A stretch of DNA of 18,071 bases from Methanobacteriota archaeon (GTDB taxonomy: Archaea; Hydrothermarchaeota; Hydrothermarchaeia; Hydrothermarchaeales; SZUA-236): the NCBI GenBank assembly GCA_003695745.1, contig RFHW01000033.1, positions 1 through 18,071 on the forward strand, given 5' to 3'. Under the pieces are notes generated by a model. The model saw only the letters and a program-made list of their open reading frames with translations. It was not told the DNA's origin and did no database searches. The position numbers and the translations under genes are program-made. Positions 5,246 through 13,930 of the stretch are shown one piece after another. The first letter of the stretch is position 1, and the number at the start of each line of letters is the position of its first letter.

Positions 5246-6703
5246 TTATTTCTTTGCCTTGCCCTTGCCCCTCAGGGTGTCGACCTTTTTGCCCACCTTT
5301 CTCTCTGCAGCCCCTTTCCCGGTGTCCATGGCCGCCGTCACATCACCAAGCCTTGACTCCACGGCGGTCTGGAACTTCTCAAGGCTTGCGCGGAGGTGCC
5401 CTTCAAACTCGGCGAGCTTTTTGCCTGCAACAGCCAGCCTCTCCATGAGCGCCTCCTTCTCAGCTTCAAGGGCCTTCACCTGTTTCTCGGCCTCTCCAAG
5501 GCGCTTTTCAAGACCCTCCTTCGCCGCAGTGAGGGTCGTGACCTCAGCAACCTTGGCCGAAAGCTCCTCCCTTGCCTTGGCCGCCTCCTTCTCCAGAGCC
5601 ACAACCTTCTCCTTCAGATCCTTTCTCTCTGCAAGGAGGTTCCTCTTCTCCACATCAGGCTCAAGCTCCTCGAATCCCTTGAGATGGAGGAGCGCAAAAT
5701 CCAGATAGGCCTTCACATCAGGCTCGGCCTCACCGATCTTGTCAAGATACTGCTCCCGCGTGTCAAGGATGCCGTCATAATCGGCGAACTTGAAGACCTC
5801 GCTCTTCCTGATCTGGGCGATCTTCTCCTTCAAATCCTCAACAGGCCTCTCAAGCTTCTTCCTCTCTTTCTCAGCCTCCTCACAGGCCTTCTCAAGCCTG
5901 GGGAGCTCAGAATAATCAGACTCAAGCTTTGAGAGAAGCTGCCTCTTCTCCTTCATCACCGGAGCTACACCTTCAAGTATCTCGCTGGAAACATACTTCA
6001 ACACAGAGGTCTTTGCAAGGTCAGCCTCCGCCTTCTTCCCGAAGAACCCGCCTTTCTTCAGCACAAGGGATATCTTCTCGGTATCCTCAGGCTTCTCTGT
6101 AAGATGCTCGAAGAGGCCGTCAATGGTCATCTTGTTCGAGGCAAGGAGGATCTCATGACCCTCCACAATGGGCGTTGTCATCTCCACGAACTTGGCCCGC
6201 ACCTTGTCAAGCTGCTTGTTTATGCGGTCCTCAATACCCTGCAGCTCACGGGTATAGTCATTCTTCATGTCAAAGTATTTCCCGCAGGTTTCAGCGCTCT
6301 TGGCCTCTGCCTCCTTGAGCTTTGCCTCGGCCTTCTCCATCTCCTCGGTCAGGCCTTTGAGCTCCTCGGCAAGGCCCTTTGAACCCTCCAGCACATCATA
6401 GTCGCGTTTGACGAGCACCCGCAGATCCTCAAGGTGGCGGAAGACCTTCTTCGTCATCCACGTTATATCAGAGCGCTCTCCCGGGAAATAATGCTTCAGA
6501 TGGTGCTCAAAACTGTCCACATCGTCCTTGCAGGCATCCACATCGGTATAGAGCCCCTCCACAGCCTTTTTAAAACCCTCTTCAAAGCCGGATTTAAAAT
6601 CTGTGAGCTTCTCAGCCTTTTTCACAAGCCCGTACCAACGAGTCTTGAACCCATGGATCTGCTTCGTCAGCTCTTCCACCGTCAAAAGCTTCTCTTCTTC
6701 CAT
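5246..6703 (-). CDS. Long coiled-coil protein of unknown function
   Basis: A 485-residue hydrophilic protein that I do not recognise as a named family. Residues about 100-160, 270-310 and especially 350-450 show dense heptad-type runs of Leu, Glu, Lys and Ala, so it should form extended coiled coils. The N-terminal ~100 residues contain a W--LV-KAEKL segment and appear more globular. A middle part (about residues 190-260) has a KKGGFFGKKAEADLAK stretch. The tail is very basic and glycine/lysine rich (KVGKKVDTLRGKGKAKK). There is no signal peptide or membrane span. An excellent SD, GGAGGATGA, lies six bases before the ATG at 6703, which overrules the longer in-frame start at 6748. The stop lies 15 bases from the secY stop on the opposite strand. 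Structural or chromosome-associated roles are possible but not shown. Confidence 0.85.
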   Translation of the reverse strand: MEEEKLLTVEELTKQIHGFKTRWYGLVKKAEKLTDFKSGFEEGFKKAVEGLYTDVDACKDDVDSFEHHLKHYFPGERSDITWMTKKVFRHLEDLRVLVKRDYDVLEGSKGLAEELKGLTEEMEKAEAKLKEAEAKSAETCGKYFDMKNDYTRELQGIEDRINKQLDKVRAKFVEMTTPIVEGHEILLASNKMTIDGLFEHLTEKPEDTEKISLVLKKGGFFGKKAEADLAKTSVLKYVSSEILEGVAPVMKEKRQLLSKLESDYSELPRLEKACEEAEKERKKLERPVEDLKEKIAQIRKSEVFKFADYDGILDTREQYLDKIGEAEPDVKAYLDFALLHLKGFEELEPDVEKRNLLAERKDLKEKVVALEKEAAKAREELSAKVAEVTTLTAAKEGLEKRLGEAEKQVKALEAEKEALMERLAVAGKKLAEFEGHLRASLEKFQTAVESRLGDVTAAMDTGKGAAERKVGKKVDTLRGKGKAKK

Positions 6704-6784
6704 TAACTCATCCTCCAGAAAGGGAACACCTGCACCCCGTGTTGCCACTTGGAAATGGAGATGCTAGAGACCCCTTCATCCCAT

Positions 6785-6858: not shown

Positions 6859-7344
6859 TCAGGCGACCGAAGGGGTGTTTGTTCCCGGGCCGAACCTGCC
6901 GCCGCCGTATCTGGAGTCTATGGTGGAGCGTATCTGCGCAAGGGGGATACCTTTATTGACCATCTCATAGGTCTCAAGGGCCTCATACTGGCAGACATCG
7001 CACATCGAGCCGTGGGAGCCCAGGAAACAGTCTTTCAGGCTTCCATGGCCCAGATTGACGCAGCCACAGTAGCAGGGGATCTTGGAGAAGACATCGCCCA
7101 TGACTATAGAGGGGTCCATAGAAGCCCGGTAGGCCTGCTCCGACCGCGCGCTGATATAGGCATAGGAGGGGAGCTCCACCGCTGTTTCCACCTTAACCTC
7201 AGGCTTCCTCAGACCAAGGGCGCCCCAGGCCACAACAGCCACCACGGCCACAATGAAAAGTATGGCTGCAGCGCCTGTTTTGCCGGTGTCTGTGCCAGTG
7301 TCAGCTGGATCCCGCCCCCTGTTTTTCCTCTTTCTTCTCGCCAT
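6859..7344 (-). CDS. Membrane-anchored PCYCGC-motif protein
   Basis: A 161-residue protein with a short, very basic, hydrophilic head (RRKRKNRGR), one membrane segment at about residues 24-45, then an extracytoplasmic domain. That domain contains P-C-Y-C-G-C at about residues 90-95 and further cysteines near 106, 115 and 118 (C-F-L-G-S-H-G-S-M-C-D-V-C). The PCYCGC motif defines a small family best known from Bacillus lipoproteins of unknown function. Six cysteines plus nearby histidines suggest metal or cofactor binding, which is inference. Here the anchor is an N-terminal helix, not a lipobox. I chose the ATG at 7344, six bases after AGGTGA, over an adjacent GTG at 7347. Confidence 0.85.
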   Translation of the reverse strand: MARRKRKNRGRDPADTGTDTGKTGAAAILFIVAVVAVVAWGALGLRKPEVKVETAVELPSYAYISARSEQAYRASMDPSIVMGDVFSKIPCYCGCVNLGHGSLKDCFLGSHGSMCDVCQYEALETYEMVNKGIPLAQIRSTIDSRYGGGRFGPGTNTPSVA

Positions 7345-7374
7345 CACGATTCACCTGCCACACACCTTTGTCCA

Positions 7375-9230: not shown

Positions 9231-9241
9231 GGATATAAACC
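9231..9241. promoter_or_regulatory. Shared divergent TATA element between aspartate kinase and the 67-residue membrane gene
   Basis: GGATATAAACC on the plus strand reads GGTTTATATCC on the minus strand, so it is a plausible box A in both directions. The minus-strand ATG (9208) lies about 28 bases from its centre, which implies a leaderless aspartate kinase mRNA. The plus-strand ATG (9267) lies about 31 bases away, which implies a nearly leaderless mRNA there too. Confidence 0.6.
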
Positions 9242-9490: not shown

Positions 9491-9542
9491 CAGTGTGTAT
9501 CGATTCTATCCCTATATTCAGGATTCTGGACGGGCTGTTCCG

Positions 9543-9914
9543 ATGAAGAGGATAATGGTCGTGGACGATGAGGAGGATATCAGGGCCATTGTGAGCAAGA
9601 TGCTTGAGAAGGAGGGCTATGAGGTGACTGCCGTTGAGTCGGGGCAGAAGTGCCTTGACCTTTTGAAGGCCGGTGAGCGCCCGGATCTCATTCTCCTTGA
9701 TGTGATGATGCCGGGGATGGACGGGTGGGAGACGTGCAGGGCCATCAGGGACAACAGGGAGACGAAGGACCTCCTTGTTTCCATGCTCACCGTGCGGGCT
9801 GAGGATGAGGACAAGATGAAGAGCATGGGCTATGCCGCTGCCAACTGGCATATCTCAAAGCCCATCGAGAAGCACAGGTTCATTAAGACTGTGAAATGGC
9901 TCCTTGATGAATAA
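9543..9914 (+). CDS. Stand-alone CheY-like response regulator (receiver domain only)
   Basis: A 123-residue single receiver domain that accepts phosphate from a histidine kinase. The phosphorylation pocket is complete: D8 and D9 (VVDDEED), phospho-acceptor D53 in LILLDVMMPGMDG, T83 as the switch Thr/Ser, and K106 in ISKP. There is no output domain, so it should act through protein contact, as CheY does. The ATG at 9543 is preferred over an in-frame start at 9495: the sequence from MKRIMVVDD is the normal receiver N-terminus, and the upstream start lies before the predicted transcription start. No kinase gene is in the window. It is convergent with the Roadblock cluster. Confidence 0.93.
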   Translation: MKRIMVVDDEEDIRAIVSKMLEKEGYEVTAVESGQKCLDLLKAGERPDLILLDVMMPGMDGWETCRAIRDNRETKDLLVSMLTVRAEDEDKMKSMGYAAANWHISKPIEKHRFIKTVKWLLDE

Positions 9915-9938: not shown

Positions 9939-9976
9939 TTTTTGAAAAGAAGGCGGAGAATATAAAAAGAAAAGAT

Positions 9977-9992
9977 GGGGGTTTTTGCCCCC
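9977..9992 (-). terminator. Hairpin plus T-rich tract ending the Roadblock cluster
   Basis: GGGGG-TTTTTG-CCCCC forms a strong GC stem touching the stop codon of the last gene. On the minus strand it is followed by ATCTTTTCTTTTTATA. This is a convincing terminator for the cluster and may insulate it from the convergent response-regulator gene. Confidence 0.65.
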
Positions 9993-10405
9993 TATTTCTT
10001 GGGTCTCAGCACGTTGTACATGTAGAGGTATGTGATGCCGATGGCAAGGCCTGAGAGACCTTCTAGCATCTCCTTGAACTCGTGGAGACCGCCCTTGGGC
10101 AGGGAAAGCGCCCTTTCATTGACGCCTATGAACTTCCAGAGGAATATGATGAAGAAGGATATCATGAACCCCAGGAAGCCCTTTTCCAGCGCCCCGCCTT
10201 TGGACATGGTCATGAGGCCGTAGGAGAAGTACAGGAGGAAGGCCGATGCGAACATCCATATGGCGTCCTCGCCCATCCTGTAGTTGCCGATGACCGACTC
10301 TCCAGCCCCGCTCTGGGTGTAGAGCATCCATGCCCATGCGAGGAGAAGTATGGGCGCTATTGTTCCCGCTATCGTCCAGATGTTGCTGCCTGATTCCTCT
10401 GCCAT
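9992..10405 (-). CDS. Four-helix membrane protein, last gene of the Roadblock cluster
   Basis: A 137-residue protein with hydrophobic segments at about residues 9-29, 47-67, 73-95 and 113-133, many Trp/Tyr/Phe residues, and an RPKK tail likely on the cytoplasmic face. A hydrophilic loop around residues 96-112 (NERALSLPKGGLHEFKE) separates helices 3 and 4. I do not recognise a family; it resembles the multi-helix membrane parts of sensors more than a transporter, which is only an impression. The start ATG follows the stop of the 95-residue membrane gene with no intervening base (TAG|ATG), so the two should be translationally coupled and may form one complex. Confidence 0.75.
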   Translation of the reverse strand: MAEESGSNIWTIAGTIAPILLLAWAWMLYTQSGAGESVIGNYRMGEDAIWMFASAFLLYFSYGLMTMSKGGALEKGFLGFMISFFIIFLWKFIGVNERALSLPKGGLHEFKEMLEGLSGLAIGITYLYMYNVLRPKK

Positions 10406-10693
10406 CTAAACCACCATCGCCTTCGTAGTCACATAGTAGTCCAGGAAGCCTTTGGTCATCACAAAGGCTGCCAGAGCCCCCAGGATGTATCTGATGGCCT
10501 GCAGCTGCAGGCTGGCGTCGTATCCCGGGACGAACTTCCATGTCACTCTCAGGAAGAAGAGCAGCGTCCCGAAGAAGATCCATGTCCACGCGCTCGTCGC
10601 CCCTTTAGCCAGTTCCCTGAACTGGTAGCTAAAGACGATGGCGACCAGCCATCCCACTATCTGGAAGACCTCTATCGGTTCCAACTCTACCAT
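10406..10693 (-). CDS. Small three-helix membrane protein
   Basis: A 95-residue protein with hydrophobic segments at about residues 8-24, 36-54 and 66-84. The first connecting loop is FRELAKGA, and a WKFVPG motif closes helix 2. No family is recognised. The SD GGAGGG lies six bases before the ATG at 10693, and the gene follows the upstream paralogue's stop by 13 bases, so it is in the same operon. Its WKF-x-x-G at the end of helix 2 is loosely echoed by LWKFIGV in the next protein, which hints that the pair may be related or assemble together; this is weak. Confidence 0.72.
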   Translation of the reverse strand: MVELEPIEVFQIVGWLVAIVFSYQFRELAKGATSAWTWIFFGTLLFFLRVTWKFVPGYDASLQLQAIRYILGALAAFVMTKGFLDYYVTTKAMVV

Positions 10694-10706
10694 AGAATCC
10701 CTCCTT

Positions 10707-11447
10707 TTATATTTTGTTCTCCTCCTTTATCTTGGCAATCTCGGTGAGCGTCTTCTCAGCCACCTTCCCACCTGCCGTGGACCCAACGGCATCCACCATC
10801 GCCGCCAGCACGTCCTCCAGCCCTGCCACGAGCTCATCTCTGGACAGCCCCTTTGCATTTTCCTTCAGGCGGGCCATGTCAGGCCTGCCGTCGCCTCCCA
10901 CTGACACGCCCTTCAGGAGGGCTGGATGCTTCCCTCTAACGCCCTCGATACGCTCTTCAAAGAGCTTTGCGGCCCCGGGGCCCAGGATGAAGGTGATCTT
11001 CTTGGCAGTGACCTCGTACATCCGCCCATAGACGTCAAGGATCCTCTCTGCCTCAGCGCTCTCTGCAGGAGGCGCCTCCTCCTTCTTCTCCTCAGCGGCC
11101 TTGGGCGCTTCAACGGCGGGCGCCGCCTTTATCTTTGAGACAGCCATGTTGGACATGAGCCTGAGGAGCGGGACGTTTATCGATTTTTCAGCGATCACCA
11201 CAAGGATCCTCTCACCAGCAGGTATGACGATGAGCTTTCCGTTCTCAGAGTCCACGGTCATCTTCTCAAGCTTCTTCGTGGCGCCTATCGCCTCCAGCAC
11301 ATGGTAGATCGTCTTTGACACGCGCGGCAGGGCGCCTCCCATGATCTCAGGCACGTCCTCGGCATCCACCCCTCCCTGCCCGCCAATGACAAATGAGCCG
11401 AGTATACCGCCCATGCTGCCTCTGAGCTCTTCCAGCGTGTCCTTCAT
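10707..11447 (-). CDS. Two-domain protein: Roadblock/LC7-like N-domain, Ala/Pro/Glu linker, unrecognised C-domain (copy 1)
   Basis: A 246-residue soluble protein. Residues 1-107 fit the Roadblock/LC7 pattern: a first helix (LEELRGSM), GILGSFVIGG-GG strands, a long middle helix (VSKTIYHVLEAIG), KMTV-S-NGKLIVIPA, ERILVVIAEK and a final N-PLLRLMSN helix. Residues about 108-131 are a low-complexity Ala/Pro/Glu/Lys linker. The remaining ~115 residues are a helix-rich domain with conserved I-GP-AA, G-PDM--LKENAK and a long C-terminal helix; I cannot name it. It is a tandem paralogue of the next gene upstream: the N-domains are identical at 69 of 107 aligned positions without gaps, but the C-domains at only about a third. 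An SD GGTGA precedes the ATG. Confidence 0.75.
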   Translation of the reverse strand: MKDTLEELRGSMGGILGSFVIGGQGGVDAEDVPEIMGGALPRVSKTIYHVLEAIGATKKLEKMTVDSENGKLIVIPAGERILVVIAEKSINVPLLRLMSNMAVSKIKAAPAVEAPKAAEEKKEEAPPAESAEAERILDVYGRMYEVTAKKITFILGPGAAKLFEERIEGVRGKHPALLKGVSVGGDGRPDMARLKENAKGLSRDELVAGLEDVLAAMVDAVGSTAGGKVAEKTLTEIAKIKEENKI

Positions 11448-11500
11448 AGCCTCACCCGATGCAAGACCTCTTTCCTGTACCTAAAACCACTATAGATGCA

Positions 11501-11514
11501 GGACTATAAAAACC
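11501..11514 (-). promoter_or_regulatory. Internal box A/TATA element before Roadblock-like copy 1
   Basis: Minus-strand GGTTTTTATAGTCC in the 75-base gap between the two paralogues. It predicts a start near 11481 and a leader of about 34 bases, so the downstream three genes may have their own promoter. Confidence 0.5.
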
Positions 11515-11522
11515 TTCCCCGC

Positions 11523-12236
11523 CTAAAGGTTCTCTTTGCTCCTTATCCTCTGGATCTCGTCCATGGCCTTCTGCTCCTGGATCGCCCCCGCCGTCTTCTT
11601 CACAGAATCCAGCATGGACAGGAGCAGCTCGTCAAAGGCATCGAGGAGCCTGTCCTTGTCAGAGATGTTCTTGGCATTCTCCCGTATCTTCATCATGTCA
11701 GGCTTGCCTGTAGAATGGAAGGTCACGCCTTCGAACACATCGGGATTGTTCTTCAGGACCTCTGCAGCCCCCTCGGCGAAGTGATGGGCCGATTTCGGCC
11801 CGATGATGTTTGCAAGACGTTTGGCAGCGGCTCCGAAGAGCTGGTCATAGACATCGCATACCCTGCCGGCGTCAAAGGCAGGCTTCTCCGGCTCTGCCTC
11901 CGGGGCTGGCGCCTCTTTTAGCTTGGATATGGCCATGTTGGACATGAGCTTGAAGAGCGGGAGGTTTATGGTCTTCTCAGCCACCACCACAAGGATCCTG
12001 CCATTGGCAGGGATGGCGATCAGCGTTGCCGACTCAGAGTCCACGGTCATCTTCTCAAAGGCCTTTGAGGCCTTTATGACATTTGTCACGTGGTGCAGGG
12101 TCTTTGACACCTTCTCCACAGCCCCTGCCATGATCTCTGGCACGTCCTTTGCAGCCACCTCACCCTTCTCTCCAATGACAAAGGAGCCTATGACCCCGCT
12201 TATGCTACCCTTTAGCTCTTCAAGTATCTCTTTCAT
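11523..12236 (-). CDS. Two-domain protein: Roadblock/LC7-like N-domain, short linker, unrecognised C-domain (copy 2)
   Basis: A 237-residue paralogue of the protein encoded just downstream. The N-domain (residues 1-107) contains GVIGSFVIGE-GEV, DVPEIMAGA, VSKTLHHVTNVI, EKMTVDSES, RILVVVAEKTIN and LMSNMAISKL. The linker (EAPAPEAEPEKPAFD) is shorter than in copy 1. The C-domain (about 115 residues) has DVYDQLF, IIGP-SA--F, a KNNPDVFEGV segment, GKPDMMKIRENAKNIS and a LLSMLDSVKKTAG helix. It could dimerise, or form a mixed dimer with copy 1 through the N-domain; this is inference. The ATG lies 21 bases after the stop of the membrane gene upstream, with only a weak SD-like GGAAGTCTGG. Confidence 0.75.
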   Translation of the reverse strand: MKEILEELKGSISGVIGSFVIGEKGEVAAKDVPEIMAGAVEKVSKTLHHVTNVIKASKAFEKMTVDSESATLIAIPANGRILVVVAEKTINLPLFKLMSNMAISKLKEAPAPEAEPEKPAFDAGRVCDVYDQLFGAAAKRLANIIGPKSAHHFAEGAAEVLKNNPDVFEGVTFHSTGKPDMMKIRENAKNISDKDRLLDAFDELLLSMLDSVKKTAGAIQEQKAMDEIQRIRSKENL

Positions 12237-12257
12237 TTCCAGACTTCCAAGACCTAT

Positions 12258-12542
12258 CTATTTTACCTTGTCCAGCTGTAGCTTCAGACCGAACGCAAGG
12301 GATGCAGACCCAAGCAGCATGAAGAGCAGCACTGCAAGGAGCTCCTGCCCCGGGGAGAGGACAGAGACAGCGCCGCCGGCGATGGCTCCCACAAAGAGCA
12401 TCACCACGCCGATGCCCACATACTGCCATACCTGCGCGAGCTCAGACCCTGTAAGGGCAGCTCTCAGCCCGTTTGCATAATAGGCCCCGATAGCGCTTGC
12501 AATCAGGGTCAGCACACCAAGCACGTTCGTTAAAACCGCCAT
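12258..12542 (-). CDS. Small three-helix membrane protein
   Basis: A 94-residue protein with hydrophobic segments at about residues 4-24, 40-60 and 66-86. It ends in a charged LKLQLDKVK tail. Gly and Ala are frequent within the helices (VGAIAGGAVSVL), which would allow close helix packing. No family is recognised. A near-ideal SD GGAGGT lies nine bases before the ATG, and a TATA element lies about 56 bases upstream. Its position between the DUF2226 gene and the two-domain paralogues suggests a membrane anchor for the cluster, by inference. Confidence 0.75.
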   Translation of the reverse strand: MAVLTNVLGVLTLIASAIGAYYANGLRAALTGSELAQVWQYVGIGVVMLFVGAIAGGAVSVLSPGQELLAVLLFMLLGSASLAFGLKLQLDKVK

Positions 12543-12590
12543 CCACGATTACCTCCTTCAAATTTTTTGTTCATTATTATTGGAACCTTG

Positions 12591-12604
12591 CCATTTATAA
12601 ACCT
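12591..12604 (-). promoter_or_regulatory. Box A/TATA element before the 94-residue membrane gene
   Basis: Minus-strand GGTTTATAAATGG, a close match to the archaeal box A. It lies in the 70-base gap after the DUF2226 gene, so the cluster may split into at least two transcripts. Confidence 0.6.
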
Positions 12605-12612
12605 TTGCGCAC

Positions 12613-13503
12613 CTATGAAGCCTCATTTATGGTCAATCCCTTTTCATAGGGGAAATTCAGCTTTTCCTTCATCGTGTCCTCAACAGTGGACCTGATCTTC
12701 TCCTCCAGCTCCTTGTTAAAGGGCTTGATGTAGACATCTATGTCGAAGCCCACGGAGTCCTCTGTCTTCGAGGAGCTGATGTAGAGGTCCAGCTCCTCCA
12801 GCTTCATCCTGTCCCTGAGCCGCTGCAGCAGCTCTCTTTTAAGCTCCTTTGAGGTCCTGTTTATCTCCTTTTCAGTGGGCAGCTTGAAGCTCTGCAGGAT
12901 GGCCTCGACAAAGTCGTCCTCAGGCTCTTTAAGGCCGAATTTCTTGAGAAGCTCCATCCTCTCCTTCCGCTTCTCCATTATGTCCTTTTCAACGGACCTT
13001 TCAGGTTCCGCCGCGGCCTGCGCCGGCTCAGAGGGCGCCGGCTCCTCAACCTGCGGAGGCCCGGCCGGCCTCTCTTCGGCAACGGTCCCAGCAGGCTCCT
13101 TAACGGCCTTCTCCTCTGCAGGCGCCTTCGCCTTCTCCTCCCGAGCATCCACAGCCTCCTTCTTCTCTGGCACAGACAGGAGGGTCTCGCCGTTCTCCTC
13201 GATGGACAGCTGGATCTGGAAGTCGCTGAATCTGTATATGTCCATGATCCCCTCGCGGGCCGACTCCTCCCTGATCTTCTTATAGGCCGCCGCGCTGAAG
13301 AGGCTCTCATCGCCCTGGAACTCGGCCCCAACCACCTCTCCATCCTTTATAAGGAGATAGCCGTCCTCAATCCCCTTCTTCCCCTCCACCGTCAGCCTGA
13401 GATAGCCGCTGAAACCCTCTGATGCAAGCTCTCCAAGGACAGAGTCCAGCGTTGCCTGCTTGGTAGATAAAAACCTGTAGGAAGTCCCCTTTGGAAGTCT
13501 CAT
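12613..13503 (-). CDS. DUF2226-type archaeal protein
   Basis: A 296-residue protein resembling the uncharacterised archaeal DUF2226 family. The N-terminal ~105 residues form a beta-rich module with the pattern GFSGYLRLTVEGKKGIEDGYLLIKDGEVVGAEF, similar in outline to PATAN/DUF4388 modules of signalling proteins. Residues about 115-175 are a disordered Ala/Glu/Pro/Lys linker. The C-terminal ~120 residues are charged and helical (MELLKKFGLKEPEDDFVEAILQSFKLP), then a conserved-looking strand pair (SVGFDIDVYIKPFNKELEEKI). There is no membrane segment. It starts 13 bases after the stop of the stand-alone Roadblock gene and is clearly co-transcribed with it. The family name is from memory and would need a profile search. 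Confidence 0.7.
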   Translation of the reverse strand: MRLPKGTSYRFLSTKQATLDSVLGELASEGFSGYLRLTVEGKKGIEDGYLLIKDGEVVGAEFQGDESLFSAAAYKKIREESAREGIMDIYRFSDFQIQLSIEENGETLLSVPEKKEAVDAREEKAKAPAEEKAVKEPAGTVAEERPAGPPQVEEPAPSEPAQAAAEPERSVEKDIMEKRKERMELLKKFGLKEPEDDFVEAILQSFKLPTEKEINRTSKELKRELLQRLRDRMKLEELDLYISSSKTEDSVGFDIDVYIKPFNKELEEKIRSTVEDTMKEKLNFPYEKGLTINEAS

Positions 13504-13516
13504 GATTCCCAGGACC

Positions 13517-13888
13517 TTACACCACTTCCTTGAGCTTGGATGCGATATCCTGAACCTCGCTGGAGATCATGTCCACGCTCACATTGGCTGCGGTGGAAAG
13601 CCCCACAAAGACCGGGCCGCTCTGTATGGAGATTATCTTGTAGTCCGGACCCTCCACCACGATCTTCTCCAGCTTACCCAGCTTCAGCTCCGAATCAAGC
13701 TGGGAGCCGATCCCGGCAGAGAACACGGTGATCGCCCCAAGCTCCTCCTCATTCACATTGCCAGAGACGTCTGAGGCCAGGATAGCCCCGTCAGAGGAGG
13801 TTATGACACAGCCCTCTACTCCAGAGATCTTCCTGAAATCACCTACGAACCTTTTCAAAAGGATATCCTTTTCAGCCACATTAACCAC
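13517..13888 (-). CDS. Stand-alone Roadblock/LC7 domain protein
   Basis: A 123-residue single-domain protein. After a first helix (DILLKRFVGDFRKI) it has GVEGCVITSSDGAILASDV, a classic Roadblock hairpin, then a long helix (EEELGAITVFSAGIGSQL), the GKLEKIVVEGPDYKIISIQSGPVFVGL strands and a final helix (SSEVQDIASKL). Roadblock proteins in prokaryotes commonly act as dimeric regulators or platforms, often for MglA-like GTPases. It is the first gene of the cluster. The start is a GTG at 13888; a second GTG at 13879 is possible. The TATA box centred near 13915 puts the transcription start at the GTG, so the mRNA is predicted to be leaderless. Confidence 0.88.
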   Translation of the reverse strand: MVNVAEKDILLKRFVGDFRKISGVEGCVITSSDGAILASDVSGNVNEEELGAITVFSAGIGSQLDSELKLGKLEKIVVEGPDYKIISIQSGPVFVGLSTAANVSVDMISSEVQDIASKLKEVV

Positions 13889-13908: not shown

Positions 13909-13922
13909 TAATATAAAAACCT
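13909..13922 (-). promoter_or_regulatory. Main box A/TATA element of the Roadblock cluster
   Basis: Minus-strand GGTTTTTATATTAG, centred about 27 bases before the GTG start at 13888. This gives a leaderless first gene. Confidence 0.65.
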
Positions 13923-13930
13923 TTTCAACA

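Follow-up and report, generated by a model that had tools for sequence, protein, structure and literature searches.

The window analysed here is an 18,071-nucleotide stretch of DNA from a deep-sea archaeon, contig RFHW01000033.1 (C41) of a genome of the order Hydrothermarchaeales (GCA_003695745.1, here G000), which amounts to 1.28 Mb in 197 contigs and is 89.7% complete. Its minus strand carries a run of seven genes, g1 to g7, encoding a stand-alone Roadblock/LC7 protein, a DUF2226 protein, a membrane protein, two paralogous proteins that join a Roadblock domain to a helical C-terminal domain (RBp-A and RBp-B), and two small hydrophobic proteins (Table 1). The gene of a CheY-like receiver converges with the run, and there is no gene for a Ras/Arf-like GTPase in the cluster locus. 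An earlier note, made from the sequence alone, had described just such a run of Roadblock, DUF2226 and membrane proteins with no GTPase beside them, and this description was confirmed.

The order Roadblock, DUF2226, three-segment membrane protein, RBp-A, RBp-B and convergent CheY is kept in both sister genomes of the window's family, G001 (BMS3Abin16) and G002, which are 90 and 80% complete, respectively. Identity to the two sister proteins is 85-87% for g1, 60-62% for g3, 52-53% for g4, 40-42% for g5, 38-39% for g2 and 56-62% for CheY; gene order has thus been retained across three genomes and two genera while g2 to g5 are only 38-62% identical. BMS3Abin16 has been assigned to Ca. Hydrothermarchaeota, subgroup MBGE-D (PMC6759336; this and the other papers cited here are quoted from extracts). 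The earlier note had made its proposal depend on co-occurrence elsewhere, which is what the core genes display in these two other genomes. At the sister loci, blast found no match for g6 or g7, and three other homologues of g7 are present in a set of 5.8 billion proteins. In G001, extra open reading frames (ORFs) lie between the g4 and g5 orthologues (L019:6800-8820), possibly an insertion, and in G002 a 61-residue ORF with two hydrophobic segments separates the RBp genes. The conserved core consists of g1 to g5 plus CheY, and g6 and g7 look local. The gene maps of all compared loci were drawn with a simple longest-ORF script, so that small genes and start sites are uncertain; the script overlooked a Roadblock ORF in locus L241 and a SepF ORF in L244, both recovered in a later search.

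The sequence AAGGTTTWTA, which resembles a B recognition element (BRE) followed by a TATA box, is found four times in the window, always on the minus strand, against 0.03 copies expected. Three copies precede g1, g3 and g5; the fourth is at 9234. Because such promoter-like sites occur inside the run, it may be divided into three units, g1-g2, g3-g4 and g5-g6-g7, with read-through possible, and a single seven-gene operon was set aside. Of the seven-gene unit first proposed, the part that stood is the conserved g1-g5 set with its CheY neighbour; the local g6 and g7 and the internal promoter-like sites speak against the rest. The terminator-like hairpin after g7 beats shuffled sequences weakly (z -1.48).

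Table 1. Genes and putative signals of the cluster locus (positions in the window)
Feature	Position	Strand	Remarks
g1, stand-alone Roadblock/LC7	13517..13888	-	123 aa, GTG start; PF03259 27.1 bits
g2, DUF2226 protein	12613..13503	-	296 aa; PF09987 70.9 bits
g3, small membrane protein	12258..12542	-	94 aa, three hydrophobic segments
g4, RBp-A	11523..12236	-	Roadblock 1-108, helical C-domain ~122-237
g5, RBp-B, paralogue of g4	10707..11447	-	same two domains by alignment; 46% identity to g4
g6, small hydrophobic protein	10406..10693	-	95 aa
g7, small hydrophobic protein	9992..10405	-	137 aa, abuts g6
CheY-like stand-alone receiver	9495..9914	+	convergent with cluster; PF00072 92.6 bits
P1, BRE/TATA-like AAGGTTTWTA	13914..13923	-	~25 nt ahead of g1 start
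P2, BRE/TATA-like	12596..12605	-	ahead of g3
P3, BRE/TATA-like	11507..11516	-	ahead of g5
Terminator-like hairpin, U-rich tail	9958..9992	-	after g7; -10.4 kcal/mol, z -1.48

The g1 protein passes the Pfam cut-off for Roadblock/LC7 (27.1 against 23 bits). The N-domains of g4 and g5, whose Roadblock character was the other point on which the earlier note had staked its proposal, do match Roadblock/LC7 by profile, and that of g4 also by predicted fold, with matches that cover residues 1-113 only. A third two-domain paralogue is encoded on the minus strand of another contig of the same genome (C15:774-1481, locus L021), next to a gene resembling S-adenosylmethionine synthetase; the structure and the N- and C-domain profiles were derived from an alignment without this locus. 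The g2 protein passes DUF2226 with 70.9 bits against a cut-off of 22, as do all 17 family members in the alignment. It consists of an N-domain that is distantly DUF4388/PATAN-like (we take DUF4388 to correspond to PATAN), a low-confidence linker, a KKFGLKEP-type motif and a C-terminal alpha/beta domain. Five of 17 relatives match DUF4388 (best E 4.9e-5), and g2 itself does not. A match to GAAD, a 'GTPase-associated adaptor' (E 0.079; 1 of 17 members), was regarded as noise. The AlphaFold2 model of g2 has a mean pLDDT of 76.9, and Foldseek found no match for it in the PDB at E<=0.001. In many lineages, DUF2226 proteins contain the g2 segment LLKKFGLKEPEDxFV in the form REELLKKYGIKEPDE..VE.IL; it is weaker in those of families f11 and f43 (E 0.001-0.03) and reduced to a stub in small genomes. 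It also ends a protein on contig C17 of the same genome (E 0.033), downstream of genes for a histidine kinase, two CheY proteins and MinD. This shared motif is a candidate docking motif. The CheY sequence of the window shows an acidic pair, an Asp and a Lys, as in active receivers. Searches with g4 and g2 gave 29 and 19 proteins, respectively, own proteins included, and the lists suggest ten contigs, that of the window among them, common to both.

The earlier note had supposed that the cluster could recruit a GTPase encoded elsewhere, or work without one. The Arf profile was applied to G000 alone. There, an Era-like protein encoded on C126 gave 15.5 bits for its best piece and exceeded the cut-off of 22.3 when neighbouring pieces were summed (24.3); there was also a weak match on C67, within a 331-residue protein. 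With the Roc profile, nothing rose above the cut-off in G000, G001 or G002, weak matches in G000 (C144, C180) and G002 (C147) being left unopened. The two best Roc matches of each genome were an initiation-factor-like protein (C110, C165 and C168, respectively; 72% identity) and an Era-like one (C126, C31 and C22; 78-79% identity to the G000 copy). A hidden Ras-like GTPase among the profile matches was thus rejected, those opened being Era-like or initiation-factor-like. In other genomes of the window's order, this Roc search did pick up GTPases: one in G004 that is part of a KaiC::GTPase fusion and a similar one in G011, truncated at the contig end. No such fusion lies within 3 kb of g1. Thus, the cognate Ras/Arf-like GTPase of an MglA/MglB-type system was found neither in the locus nor in the genome (80-90% completeness in the family, three weak matches unopened). 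Since the locus lacks such a GTPase and the opened matches belong to other families, the idea of a GTPase encoded elsewhere is not favoured.

Which nucleoside triphosphatase (NTPase) accompanies these proteins in other archaea? Among 297 genomes searched, 95 contain DUF2226, 96 Roadblock and 53 both; for at least 21 of the latter, a DUF2226 and a Roadblock match are, as judged by eye, within ~5 kb of each other. Neighbourhoods were compared at 58 DUF2226 loci from 36 families, a chosen, not random, sample that includes the three loci of the window's family; about ten were picked for a nearby Roadblock gene, a few for similarity to g4 and none for MinD, several genomes contribute two loci and several contigs stop inside 4 kb. 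Within that distance, 27 of the 58 loci, from 22 families, have MinD; 15, from 9 families, have Roadblock; and three have SepF. These 27 loci point to MinD-family ATPases, rather than GTPases, as the commoner NTPase next to DUF2226. By our own estimate, like the other chance figures derived from gene numbers, a ~9-kb stretch would contain MinD by chance in roughly 4% of cases, because the 1.28 Mb of G000 hold six MinD-like matches. The MinD neighbourhood recurs in several forms. In small archaeal genomes, the run NYN-DUF2226-X-MinD-Sm, where X has ~150 residues, is repeated (L087-L096, L113-L125); in G028, MinD, a 60-residue protein with a single hydrophobic segment, Roadblock and DUF2226 form a run. 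Within the window's order, Roadblock is immediately upstream of MinD in G008, and a chemoreceptor-like gene and DUF2226-type genes stand ahead of MinD in G013 and G016 (the chemoreceptor profile was derived from locus L098, itself labelled by eye). At two loci of family f18 (L187, L189), Roadblock, a 291-292-residue protein and MinD are in a row, the 291-292-residue protein having a weak LAMTOR5-like stretch in L189. No Roadblock ORF was recovered at L181 or L216.

Viewed from the Roadblock gene, the picture differs. Among 66 Roadblock loci (27 families; chosen, some of them for DUF2226 or g4), a GTPase or its motif is present within 3 kb at 21, a KaiC-type ATPase at 19, DUF2226 at 11 and MinD at 8. 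KaiC::GTPase fusions adjoin Roadblock in several families (e.g. L106:3401-4573 and L069:867-2084, the two examined with Pfam, which gave KaiC plus Arf), and one stands beside Roadblock-DUF2226 in three genomes of family f21. A tree of 88 Roadblock sequences places 19 of 24 GTPase-labelled rows together in a starred clade of 36 (99/99). The g1 protein is not among its members and groups with a Roadblock protein of G007 (99/97); the RBp domains form a clade of their own. The MinD-labelled rows are scattered (8 changes for 10 rows). This tree has few columns and long branches, about which the program warned, and leaves out stretches of <85 or >140 residues; its rows are labelled by locus, so that the second Roadblock of a GTPase locus shares the label, and five of the 24 GTPase rows are outside the main clade. 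It points to the KaiC::GTPase fusions going, probably, with a largely different Roadblock clade. In G007, two genes for Roadblock-containing proteins flank that of a HAMP receptor, and a DUF2226 remnant is adjacent.

The helical C-domain of the RBp proteins offered another means of tracing the set. Its profile matches 21 of 394 genomes at E<=0.01 and 14 at E<=2e-7; of these 14, the three of the window's family and G055 (family f21) supplied rows to the profile, and ten from families f11 and f43 did not. In all 14, a C-domain gene has DUF2226 0.2-8.2 kb away; the extra third copy on C15 of G000 has none in view. The set thus recurs in three lineages. Seven more genomes have matches with E 7e-6 to 0.01, of which the histidine kinase of G136 alone is used here; proteins of G290 and G168 also match the profile. 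With a profile lacking it, the G055 protein has E 0.044 among 6160 ORFs, and hhalign aligned 57 columns with a probability of 70. The order in that genome is Roadblock, Roadblock-plus-C-domain, a DUF2226::Roadblock fusion, KaiC and KaiC. At all seven f11/f43 loci mapped, MinD, DUF2226, SepF, Roadblock and the C-domain protein are found within 9.6-10.5 kb, although the C-domain ORF of L244, as called, lacks its Roadblock part. SepF of these families matches PDB 7al1, which we take to be SepF from Methanobrevibacter smithii, with E 9e-26, and it is because of this match that we label them Methanobacteriales-like. In one such genome, genes for an MscS-like channel, a sortase and the Roadblock-plus-C-domain protein are in a row (L238:8880-11195). 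G136 has the C-domain in a histidine kinase, upstream of HisKA, and the gene that follows encodes CheY. Two further resemblances to the C-domain, of the helical N-part of the G007 Roadblock protein and of a 67-residue helical ORF in G285, are not claimed (hhalign probabilities 3.8 and 0.2).

Possible partners are encoded elsewhere in G000. The six MinD-like matches are on C127, where a gene for a 66-residue membrane protein follows, C17, C39, C125, C68 and C148. On C17 (L161), genes for a five-PAS histidine kinase and two CheY proteins precede that of the MinD-like ATPase, whose Walker motif is KDGVGK, and the next protein is the one ending in the DUF2226 motif. CheY immediately precedes MinD there, and this pair is kept in G001 and G002. 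SepF is encoded on C57 of G000 and C15 of G002, and none was found in G001. ATPases of the T2SSE type account for seven matches on six contigs of G000.

Taken as a whole, these observations are best explained, though at somewhat less than even chances, by a MinD-linked, membrane-associated scaffold that works without a Ras-like GTPase. We infer that such a complex, its MinD partnership, its CheY input and its cellular target would be as follows. The scaffold would be built from the g1 Roadblock protein, g2 as a PATAN-like adaptor and the two Roadblock-plus-helical-domain proteins, g4 and g5; g3, together with g6 and g7 in this genome, would hold it at the membrane; and the adjacent phospho-receiver, CheY, would modulate it. 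The NTPase that works with it would most likely be, in place of a Ras-like GTPase, an ATPase of the MinD/ParA family whose gene lies elsewhere in the genome. With a partner of that kind, the scaffold would regulate in space a membrane machine, which could be the FtsZ-SepF division ring or a system like the type IV pilus. The broader proposal that Roadblock and DUF2226 scaffolds have a MinD-family ATPase in place of the Ras-like GTPase, and so represent a GTPase-free counterpart of MglA/MglB, is possible and rather doubtful; the same holds for its ties, differing between lineages, to FtsZ-based division through SepF or to CheY signalling.

Several points weigh against this explanation. MinD is absent within 4 kb from 31 of the 58 DUF2226 loci (some contigs stop early), and no MinD gene lies within 4 kb of g2 in the window's own neighbourhood. 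The MinD genes of G000 are on other contigs, and no MinD, SepF or pilus gene is in the window. Roadblock loci have MinD within 3 kb less often than a GTPase or its motif (8 against 21 of 66). The helical domain gives a moderate match between lineages, g4 and the G055 protein being 21% identical over it, and two genomes with a DUF2226 and Roadblock neighbourhood, G143 (f43) and G195 (f92), lack a C-domain match. In f11/f43, ~8 kb with unrelated genes separates DUF2226 from the C-domain gene, which has MscS and sortase genes beside it. Finally, co-location is not proof of interaction.

PATAN-type response regulators probably control type IV pili in cyanobacteria. An output scaffold of a two-component system, in which phospho-CheY would bind the PATAN-like/Roadblock complex and control the membrane machine directly, with no NTPase, is on the whole unlikely, yet it agrees with the CheY gene kept beside the cluster, the C-domain of the G136 histidine kinase followed by CheY, the HAMP receptor between the Roadblock genes of G007 with the DUF2226 remnant next to it, the seven T2SSE-type matches on six contigs and the frequent presence of the Roadblock family arCOG02603 in archaeal type IV pilus loci (PMC4858521). 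What it leaves unaccounted for is the repeated association of DUF2226 and Roadblock with MinD or KaiC::GTPase elsewhere. Another reading is a classic MglB-like system whose Ras-like GTPase, stand-alone or fused to KaiC, has its gene in a part of the genome that the assembly lacks or has diverged too far to be recognised. The fusion beside Roadblock in G004 and beside Roadblock-DUF2226 in the three f21 genomes, like the 21 of 66 chosen Roadblock loci with a GTPase or its motif, would fit such a system. It becomes distinctly unlikely when one considers that the Arf search of G000 and the Roc search of three genomes found no Ras-like GTPase among the matches opened, in genomes 80-90% complete, and that g1 is placed outside the clade of 19 of the 24 GTPase-labelled rows, in a tree with few columns and long branches. 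That generic adaptor genes with no joint function have come together by chance might be suspected from the internal promoter-like sites, the variable g6 and g7 and the third RBp paralogue on another contig; this is made very improbable by a gene order that three genomes, from two genera, have retained despite 38-62% identity of g2 to g5, and by the recurrence of the set in three lineages.

Roadblock proteins are predicted NTPase regulators (PMC4316618), and several known systems resemble the cluster in part. Unlike the Myxococcus MglA/MglB/MglC-RomR system, the window has no MglA-like GTPase that could be found, and it has DUF2226, small membrane proteins and two-domain RBp proteins. Orphan MglB homologues, 328 of 749 (PMC4316618), share with g1 a Roadblock gene uncoupled from an MglA gene; the window differs in that its Roadblock gene belongs to a conserved set of several genes, among them those of DUF2226 and of Roadblock proteins with two domains. 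In 2006, Makarova drew attention to PATAN proteins in the vicinity of MglB homologues, as cited (PMC4316618); here a possibly PATAN-like protein is likewise near an MglB homologue, but this archaeal protein is DUF2226, often near MinD. Streptomyces conservons comprise a histidine kinase, Roadblock, a protein without assigned function and a GTPase (PMC4316618). They share Roadblock and membrane signalling with the cluster, whereas no histidine kinase or GTPase was detected among the nine proteins scanned, CvnC being outside the search. Archaeal FleN/MinD ATPases and the Roadblock family arCOG02603 occur near type IV pilus loci; both families are thus tied to membrane machines, but Roadblock, DUF2226 and MinD are not joined as one module in the extract of that work (PMC4858521). 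Archaeal sepF has a variable genomic context (PMC8178401); SepF, of the type of 7al1, adjoins DUF2226 in the seven f11/f43 loci and is on another contig in the window's genome. Stand-alone receivers make up ~40% of archaeal response regulators, most of them outside conserved neighbourhoods (PMC5847659). No paper in the library searched names DUF2226, and among the titles and abstract openings listed none describes an association of Roadblock with KaiC, SepF, MinD or PATAN in archaea.

Elsewhere in the window, a 500-residue, apparently coiled-coil-rich protein is encoded at 5246-6748 (minus strand), convergent with secY, and the protein at 6859-7347 (minus strand) has a PCYCGC cysteine motif and a single hydrophobic segment.

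In our judgement, the placing of the division ring and of pili in archaea is still largely open, and by 2014 no orphan Roadblock protein had been characterised according to the extract of a survey (PMC4316618). If MinD-family ATPases are the partners of the Roadblock/DUF2226 proteins, the DUF2226 family, present in 95 of 297 genomes, would gain a testable role. Roadblock domains in archaea would then serve ATPases as well as GTPases.

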